Origin: Candidatus Zixiibacteriota bacterium
Lineage (GTDB): Bacteria > Zixibacteria > MSB-5A5 > SM23-73-2
Direction of reading: 5' to 3'
DNA: 29,373 bases
NCBI GenBank assembly: GCA_030615745.1
Contig: JAUWYR010000031.1
Location: 1-29,373 of the forward strand
The position numbers and the translations under genes are program-made. The notes beneath the pieces were generated by a model that did not search any database, had not been told where the DNA came from, and worked only from the letters and a program-made list of their open reading frames with translations. Positions 358 through 26,717 of the stretch are shown here, piece after piece (position 1 is the stretch's first letter; each line of letters starts with the position of its first letter).

Positions 358-370
358 ATTTTTATCTGTG

Positions 371-388
371 GTGGATGATAACATCCAC
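371..388 (+). repeat. ATAA-loop hairpin, copy 1
   Basis: A 7-bp perfect stem (GTGGATG with CATCCAC) closes an ATAA loop. It sits 13 bases after the EF-G terminator and just upstream of the promoter of the first barrel gene. It is one of at least six intergenic hairpins here with the same loop and different but complementary stems. From 371 to 429 the sequence is identical to 1219-1277. Confidence 0.8.
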
Positions 389-417
389 AACGAACTGGAA
401 GTTCTTAAAAAAAAATC

Positions 418-1144: not shown

Positions 1145-1175
1145 GCTGCAATTTAGGTAATACTCTGATCCCTTG

Positions 1176-1205
1176 TTCTCCGGGGGTGTTATCATCACCG
1201 GAGAA
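1176..1205 (-). repeat. ATAA-loop hairpin, inverted copy
   Basis: A 13-position stem (TTCTC... at 1176-1188 against 1193-1205, one mismatch and one G-U) closes TTAT at 1189-1192, which is ATAA on the minus strand. The core next to the loop, read on the minus strand, is GATGATAACA as in the plus-strand copies. It lies 31 bases after the first barrel gene and 9 bases before the plus-oriented copy at 1215-1240. It has no T-run, so it is not a standard terminator. Confidence 0.65.
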
Positions 1206-1214
1206 ATTCATATC

Positions 1215-1240
1215 CGTTGTGGATGATAACATCCACAACG
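1215..1240 (+). repeat. ATAA-loop hairpin, copy 2
   Basis: A perfect 11-bp stem (CGTTGTGGATG) closes ATAA at 1226-1229. The right part is the start of a 59-base segment identical to 371-429 that runs into the -35 box of the downstream promoter. The distance from this segment to the next start codon (196 bases) almost equals that of copy 1 (195 bases). Confidence 0.85.
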
Positions 1241-1265
1241 AACTGGAAGTTCTTAAAAAAAAATC

Positions 1266-2092: not shown

Positions 2093-2118
2093 CATTGTGA
2101 ACGATAACATGCGCAATG
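2093..2118 (+). repeat. ATAA-loop hairpin, copy 3 (imperfect)
   Basis: CATTGTGAACG and CATGCGCAATG flank ATAA at 2104-2107. Nine of eleven positions can pair, one of them as G-U. It follows the terminator by 12 bases and precedes the YidD-fusion gene by about 40. Confidence 0.6.
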
Positions 2119-2160
2119 AGGGTGATCGTTTAGAATTGCGGTTGGGTTTATCCAAATAAA

Positions 2161-4288: not shown

Positions 4289-4314
4289 CATTGCGGATGA
4301 TAACATCTACAATG
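4289..4314 (+). repeat. ATAA-loop hairpin, copy 4
   Basis: CATTGCGGATG and CATCTACAATG flank ATAA at 4300-4303; nine Watson-Crick pairs, one G-U and one mismatch. It sits 13 bases beyond the end of the minus-strand glgA gene, in the convergent intergenic gap. Confidence 0.7.
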
Positions 4315-4326
4315 AGCGTGTTGTTA

Positions 4327-21583: not shown

Positions 21584-21697
21584 CCAACAGATTGAACGGA
21601 TTAAACAGATTTATGTGCTGTCAGGAGGTAACTCCTGACAGCACGTGCAAAGATTTCCAACAGATTTCCCAACAGATTAAACAGATTAAACAGATTA
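21584..21697. repeat. Degenerate 9-base tandem repeat (AACAGATTA type) split by a hairpin
   Basis: Three exact AACAGATTA units at 21671-21697 and several decayed ones (ACAGATTGAACGGATTAAACAG near 21587, CAACAGATTT near 21658). The hairpin 21615-21644 lies in the middle as if inserted. Confidence 0.65.
21615..21644. repeat. Perfect 13-bp hairpin with GTAA loop
   Basis: GTGCTGTCAGGAG pairs fully with CTCCTGACAGCAC around GTAA (21628-21631). The GGAG-loop-CTCC core resembles the 26687-26702 hairpin and the ATAA-loop family. GTAA is also a GNRA tetraloop in RNA. No T-run follows. Confidence 0.75.
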
Positions 21698-22596: not shown

Positions 22597-22686
22597 GGAA
22601 AACAAAGGACAATAAGAAAAAGAGAAAACTTTCCGAAAGAAAAAACAAAATATGTTAGATAATAAGCGAAAAAGTAATGTCCGTTC

Positions 22687-22725
22687 GTCGAGGATGTTAT
22701 CCCTGGCTGGGCTAGCATCTTCGAC
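22687..22725. repeat. Hairpin related to the ATAA-loop family
   Basis: GTCGAGGATG (22687-22696) pairs with CATCTTCGAC (22716-22725), one G-U. The loop starts TTAT and contains a direct repeat of CTGG. Its GGATGTTATCC core resembles the minus-strand form of the family, but the long loop makes membership uncertain. Confidence 0.5.
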
Positions 22726-22738
22726 AAAATTCTAACTG

Positions 22739-22764
22739 CTTGGCGGATGATAACATCCGCCAAG
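22739..22764 (+). repeat. ATAA-loop hairpin, copy 5
   Basis: A perfect 11-bp stem (CTTGGCGGATG) closes ATAA (22750-22753). Compared with the copy at 1215, the outer six positions differ on both arms in a compensatory way while the GGATG core and loop are identical. It lies 39 bases before the 76-residue gene. Confidence 0.85.
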
Positions 22765-22803
22765 AACGAGAGGATAAATTGTAATTGAAAGAGGAGGCTA
22801 AAA

Positions 22804-26611: not shown

Positions 26612-26717
26612 TGGATGGAGATGAACTCCACCCTACGCGGAAACTTTGGGGGGGAGATAAACTCCACCCCTACGCGGAAATTTCGGGTGGAGATAACTCC
26701 ACACATACCTGAAAGAC
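26612..26717. repeat. Three decaying 36-base tandem units with ATAA-type hairpins
   Basis: Units spaced 36 bases apart start near TGGAG (26616), GGGAG (26652) and TGGAG (26688). Each holds a small stem-loop: TGGAG/CTCCA with loop ATGAA, GGAG/CTCC with loop ATAAA and GTGGAG/CTCCAC with loop ATAA (26687-26702). Between them lies a TACGCGGAAA-type spacer. Confidence 0.7.

Follow-up and report, generated by a model that had tools for sequence, protein, structure and literature searches.

GATAAC hairpins of Zixibacteria: putative REP-type elements with variable but complementary lower stems

Introduction

The window considered here, a stretch of 29,373 nucleotides from a Candidatus Zixiibacteriota bacterium (contig JAUWYR010000031.1, assembly GCA_030615745.1), carries short hairpins between its genes. 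They share an ATAA loop, and their outer arms differ from copy to copy yet pair within each copy. What has kept these stems complementary when their sequences have varied so widely? A preliminary description of the window proposed selection on a hairpin in RNA or DNA, or a copying mechanism that needs a hairpin.

That interpretation is partly supported. From comparison of the sequences, the hairpins, named here the GATAAC family, are very probably REP-type elements, single or in BIME/REPIN-like pairs, which are now, or formerly were, mobilised as single-stranded DNA by a cognate REP-associated tyrosine transposase (RAYT).

Number and distribution of the hairpins

The genome to which the window belongs (G000; 2.28 Mb in 74 contigs) contains 50 exact copies of GGATGATAACATCC, compared with none of the reversed control pattern. 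A covariance model of the kind suggested in the preliminary description, built from 19 copies and run against G000, gave 111 matches at E ≤ 1 and 81 non-overlapping hairpins at E ≤ 0.01, with an excess of compensatory changes. These counts exclude a chance origin of the repeated hairpins. As had been proposed, the copies lie mostly between genes: 46 of the 50 exact copies are outside simple open reading frames of at least 90 amino acids, which served as gene calls, at loci where coding cover is about 75%. The gaps holding copies are tandem, convergent and divergent in 31, 11 and 3 cases, compared with 101, 19 and 15 for all gaps at the same loci.

Exact copies are also present in other genomes of the order (70 in G002, 39 in G008, 29 in G006 and few in others), with none in the same-genus relative G001. 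Beyond the order, a single copy was found across 87 searched genomes of the same class. Paired units are present as well in metagenome bins of Dehalococcoidia/Chloroflexi and Latescibacterota, the occurrence in other phyla depending on these bins, taken as binned.

Hairpins in the window

All of the copies first listed are present (Table 1). Those at 371-388 and 1215-1240 do not count as two independent copies: they belong to the two parts of a duplication (363-574 and 1211-1423; 77% identity). This duplication spans the hairpin and the upstream region of the neighbouring beta-barrel-like ORFs 566-1144 and 1415-2023. There are two inverted-pair units in the window, 1175-1243 and 22683-22767. 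The copies at 1176-1205 and 1215-1240, initially regarded as separate, form one element with the order GTTC-hairpin-spacer-hairpin-GAAC, and the copy at 22739-22764 proved to have a left partner with an enlarged loop. Two forms thought to be related were not assigned to the family: that at 21615-21644 belongs to a different REP family, and that at 26687-26702 is a single hairpin of no clear family.

Table 1. Hairpins and associated features in the window, with the positions of the family centres
Feature	Coordinates	Strand	Centre
Right-type single hairpin; arm GTGGT, tip GGATGATAACATCC 373-386, arm ACAAC, foot GAAC 392-395	368-395	+	exact GATGATAACATC, 374-385
Left hairpin of complete inverted pair; foot GTTC 1175-1178, arms TCCGG/CCGGA, core GGGTGTTATCATCA	1175-1202	-	minus-strand copy, ~1179-1202
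Spacer between hairpins of 1175-1243 pair	1203-1215
Right hairpin of 1175-1243 pair; arms GTTGT/ACAAC, core GGATGATAACATCC 1221-1234, foot GAAC 1240-1243	1216-1243	+	exact GATGATAACATC, 1222-1233
Degenerate single hairpin CATTGTGAACGATAACATGCGCAATG; foot decayed; directly past intrinsic-terminator-like hairpin 2046-2074	2093-2121	+	variant AACGATAACATG, 2100-2111
Single hairpin ATTGC-GGATGATAACATCT-ACAAT; foot GAGC 4314-4317	4289-4317	+	exact GATGATAACATC, 4296-4307
Hairpin of another REP family, CAGGAG-GTAA-CTCCTG; related copies in relatives flank other RAYTs	21615-21644
Left hairpin with enlarged GC-rich loop (GTCGAGGATG...GCATCTTCGAC); foot GTTC 22683-22686	22683-22725	-
Right hairpin of 22683-22767 pair; TTGGC-GGATGATAACATCC-GCCAA, foot GAAC 22764-22767	22740-22767	+	exact GATGATAACATC, 22746-22757
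Short GTGGAGATAACTCCAC hairpin, not assigned to the GATAAC family; core seen once among sequences examined	26687-26702

The GC-rich enlargement of the loop, a CCTGGCCGGGCAGG-like insert, recurs in left hairpins of G000 (that at 22683-22725, and those in L024, L036, L040, L044 and L086), and such hairpins form a sub-type of the inverted-pair unit. Strong intrinsic-terminator-like hairpins followed by T runs (319-353 and 2046-2074) stand directly upstream of two GATAAC hairpins.

Structure of the hairpin and variation of the stem

Each hairpin consists of a constant tip, GGATG-ATAA-CATCC, a variable lower stem of about 5 bp, and a foot, GARC, directly 3' of the stem, equivalent to GYTC ahead of the hairpin on the opposite strand. 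Copies were selected by the 14-base tip only, which leaves the outer stem and foot unselected; the constancy of the tip is uninformative, since it was the selection criterion. At the first five positions outside the tip, the 50 exact copies in G000 have Watson-Crick pairs in 94, 86, 88, 80 and 56% of cases, compared with 32, 42, 31, 30 and 24% when partners are shuffled. The corresponding values in 97 distinct copies from other genomes are 92, 90, 90, 82 and 71%. Past position 5 pairing is at the chance level, and it stops at the fixed foot. The 50 G000 copies have 33 different five-base arms, and hardly any position of the lower stem lacks one of the four pair types. The observation that unlike arms each pair with their own partner thus holds throughout the genome. 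The lower stem appears to be under a demand to pair, without a demand for sequence.

The foot, as GCTC or GTTC, is present on the left of 42 of 54 paired units and on the right of 38. It is followed by a purine run of about six bases, and the AG/GA cleavage-site dinucleotide by the foot shows no enrichment beyond base composition, the purine run being the only signal.

Inverted pairs and their surroundings

Many copies stand in inverted pairs of the form GYTC-hairpin-spacer-hairpin-GARC. There are 15 inverted close pairs in G000, in which many copies are single, and 54 non-redundant units overall. They share with REPINs and BIMEs the arrangement of two inverted REPs around a short spacer. Predicted DNA folding gave two separate hairpins in 43 of the 54 units and one in 3, the latter being the only units that form the single long hairpin of a REPIN doublet. 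Left and right arms within a unit match at 1.28 of 5 positions, compared with 1.71 on shuffling, and 0.15% of shuffles were as low. Keeping the two arms different would allow each hairpin to fold on its own. A Bacteroidales unit (L152) was excluded from the family, as it is without a proper foot.

A search for empty sites at a G002 locus, by comparison with G006, G008 and G004, gave no clean site, other repeats replacing the intergenic sequence. In the comparison of a G000 locus (C69) with G001, of the same genus, the orthologous intergenic spot that has a GATAAC hairpin in G000 (L037, about 1500-1540) is occupied in the relative by a GTAG-type hairpin (L222). Homology breaks off abruptly near the hairpin foot, next to other repeats, in about half of the comparisons between orthologous loci (L069 vs. 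L130/L132, L077 vs. L126, L055 vs. L068, L064 vs. L066). From these alignments, the ends of the element seem to behave as if they were rearrangement points.

RAYT genes and their remnants

An intact gene for a 185-aa RAYT was found exactly between left and right GATAAC hairpins in the same-order genome G008 (L063), in the order GCTCCCGCTGGATGTTATCATCCAGCGG, RAYT gene, GGCGGATGATAACATCCGCC, GAGC. The protein scores above the cut-off for Pfam Y1_Tnp; with NCBIfam REP_Tyr_transpos it gives an E value of 5e-20 and a score of 71.9, below the cut-off of 80. The best PDB match of an AlphaFold2 model (pLDDT 90) is 4er8, in which E. coli TnpA-REP is bound to a REP hairpin, and the HuH motif (H60, H62) and Y136 are invariant in the RAYT alignment, so that the protein has the HuH and catalytic tyrosine of a predicted Y1 fold. 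Residues E100, H101 and R104 of the E. coli enzyme are reported to read GTAG (PMC6006769). In alignments judged by eye, the L063 protein differs from it in having I, K and I at the equivalent positions, and a G000 RAYT that has GTAG REPs keeps D, H and R; the substitutions would be in line with the non-GTAG foot of the GATAAC hairpins. The G008 element lies between two copies of a 194-bp direct repeat of the end of a GTPase-like gene (L063 1214-1407 and 2084-2277; 98.5% identity). The repeat would be due either to a tandem duplication around the element or to an artefact of assembly.

C-terminal remnants of the same type of RAYT lie between or beside GATAAC hairpins in Latescibacterota bins (L211, L197 twice, L182 and L181), and their distance to the right hairpin matches wherever the right end is present. 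Thus inverted copies flank a RAYT both in G008 and in these remnants. Between homologous copies of the remnants, both sides of the lower stem have changed, CGCTGT/ACAGCG compared with CGATGT/ACATCG (C-G to A-T).

There are 23 RAYT-like matches in the order, and GATAAC hairpins bound L063 only; most other Y1/RAYT loci are without such a hairpin, and the few that have one have it at a distance. The intact cognate gene was found once among 132 genomes of the class. In G000 no cognate RAYT was found. Its own three RAYTs were rejected as mobilisers of the GATAAC family, each being flanked by its own different REPs, and a Dehalococcoidia RAYT near a GATAAC pair (L209) was rejected as cognate, since its own REPs are of the GTAG type, with the pair located outside them. 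A RAYT family with 43-45% identity has REPs of the same design, with the tip TTGGT-AGGA-ACCAA and a shared AGC in the foot. Genomes of the order are rich in RAYTs (L104, L105, L111, L115, L117, L118, L120 and others). With several RAYTs flanked by hairpin families of their own, several REP families coexist between the genes.

Origin of stem complementarity

That hairpins bound a RAYT gene, together with the strong compensatory variation throughout the genome, supports a copying mechanism that needs a hairpin. The cognate RAYT, a HUH/Y1 endonuclease, would mobilise the hairpins as folded single-stranded DNA, presumably recognising sequence in the loop or upper stem and in the foot, and in the lower stem pairing alone. 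Such a filter would act on copies during movement and not while they are resident. Those in G000 are probably left over from a RAYT since lost or unassembled, or were supplied by it in trans. In Stenotrophomonas TnpA-REP (TnpA-Sm) a loop base is essential and the bottom three stem pairs can be exchanged, while a mismatch is harmful (PMC8266576); by analogy, this biochemistry fits the behaviour suggested for GATAAC hairpins.

The stems could instead belong to RNA elements, such as terminators, stabilisers of mRNA 3' ends or protein-binding sites, kept by host selection, with covariation reflecting RNA folding. Their intergenic location and rarity in divergent gaps would suit such a role, as would the different hairpin at the orthologous spot in G001, as if some hairpin were useful there. 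However, G.T and A.C mismatches are equally common in the stems (27 and 26), so no transcript strand is favoured, and the few differences in the stems of aligned orthologous units each weaken or abolish pairing, with no compensating change (a small number, judged by eye). These two observations argue for DNA mobilisation over a resident RNA role. Moreover, the hairpins of the window match no Rfam family, two of its copies come after a separate terminator-like hairpin, and the linkage to a RAYT would be left unexplained. Selection on an RNA hairpin, one of the original suggestions, is therefore not favoured, and we consider it quite improbable. The palindrome might also be a double-stranded operator or chromosome-organising site, in keeping with the perfect symmetry of the tip arms in many copies. 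A site of this kind predicts arms that are conserved or random, not random yet paired, and the asymmetric loop (ATAA vs. TTAT) holds a fixed orientation relative to the foot; this explanation is extremely improbable. Replication template switching, in which one arm is copied to the other, could by itself produce most of the complementarity with little selection, mobility being secondary. A single such event can create and repair stems (PMC8794818), and the arms are extremely diverse. Yet pairing of any length is then expected, in place of the limit at 5 bp and at the foot, and the uncompensated changes in orthologous copies also stand against it, so that this too is improbable. Template switching may still supply new arms on which mobilisation by the RAYT then acts.

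A bolder extension is that whole REPtrons transpose between bacterial phyla in the manner of a true transposon, shedding internally deleted copies down to two bare hairpins. The RAYT would recognise the sequence of tip and foot but only the shape of the lower stem, and the two ends of the unit would be driven to differing stems that avoid pairing with each other. We regard this as a tentative proposal, somewhat more likely to fail than to hold. According to the literature, REPtrons do not appear to transpose as units (PMC6006769), a question on which the RAYT remnants found between GATAAC hairpins in the Latescibacterota bins have a bearing.

Significance and comparison with known systems

The GATAAC family is itself new, as are a foot of GYTC and stems that vary this freely in their lower part only, complementary variation of REP stems as such having been described before (PMC2817692; PMC3733652). 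Also new are the unlike stems carried by the left and right hairpins of a unit, and the RAYT remnants found in bins from a different phylum. In a literature search no paper was found that names both Zixibacteria and repetitive extragenic palindromes, and the present case brings this group, and a foot that is not GT[A/G]G, into REP biology. The copies amount to a natural selection experiment on RAYT specificity, separating bases that are read (tip, foot) from those that need only pair (lower stem), a pattern directly testable in vitro.

The preliminary description knew of no named family with this loop. This stands with respect to Rfam, but the architecture is that of the known REP/BIME/REPIN-RAYT class; the match to REP and BIME elements extends to kind, but not to sequence or foot motif. 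Like the GTAG-superfamily REPs, BIMEs and REPINs and the RAYT/TnpA-REP of E. coli, Pseudomonas and Stenotrophomonas, the hairpins are short extragenic palindromes in many copies, with a tetranucleotide foot, inverted doublets and an inverted pair flanking a RAYT gene. They are extragenic palindromes in tens or more copies, as the strict definition of REPs (Nunvar et al.) requires, but fall outside it because their foot, GCTC or GTTC, lacks its GT[A/G]G. They have the fixed tetranucleotide foot of REPs in the broad sense, and by architecture and enzyme the family would seem to work like a REP. It differs from the superfamily in the range of its lower-stem arms and pair types, and from E. coli REPs, in which the upper stem-loop is structural only and lower-stem bases are read, in a lower stem apparently recognised by pairing alone.

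Atypical REPs without a GTAG foot are known in TnpA-Y1 subclass 2.6 (RAYT group 5; PMC6006769), which resembles the present family in its flanking hairpins without GT[A/G]G, its copies elsewhere in the genome and its non-conserved GTAG-reading region. That subclass is described as mostly from Bacteroidetes, with weaker structures, and its HuH-Y spacing has a median of 82 aa compared with 74 in L063. In TIRtrons, genes for Y1 transposases (TIRYT) likewise stand between inverted repeats that are not REPs and may recur in the genome (PMC3733652); many of these share a GGGGWSAS motif. The ends here are compact hairpins in which tip and foot are fixed. The HUH/Y1 fold, hairpins read as single-stranded DNA and a tetranucleotide at the hairpin foot are shared with IS200/IS605 elements (IS608, ISDra2). 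In contrast to the same-strand subterminal hairpins of the latter, the ends here are inverted, and the L063 protein is closer to TnpA-REP.
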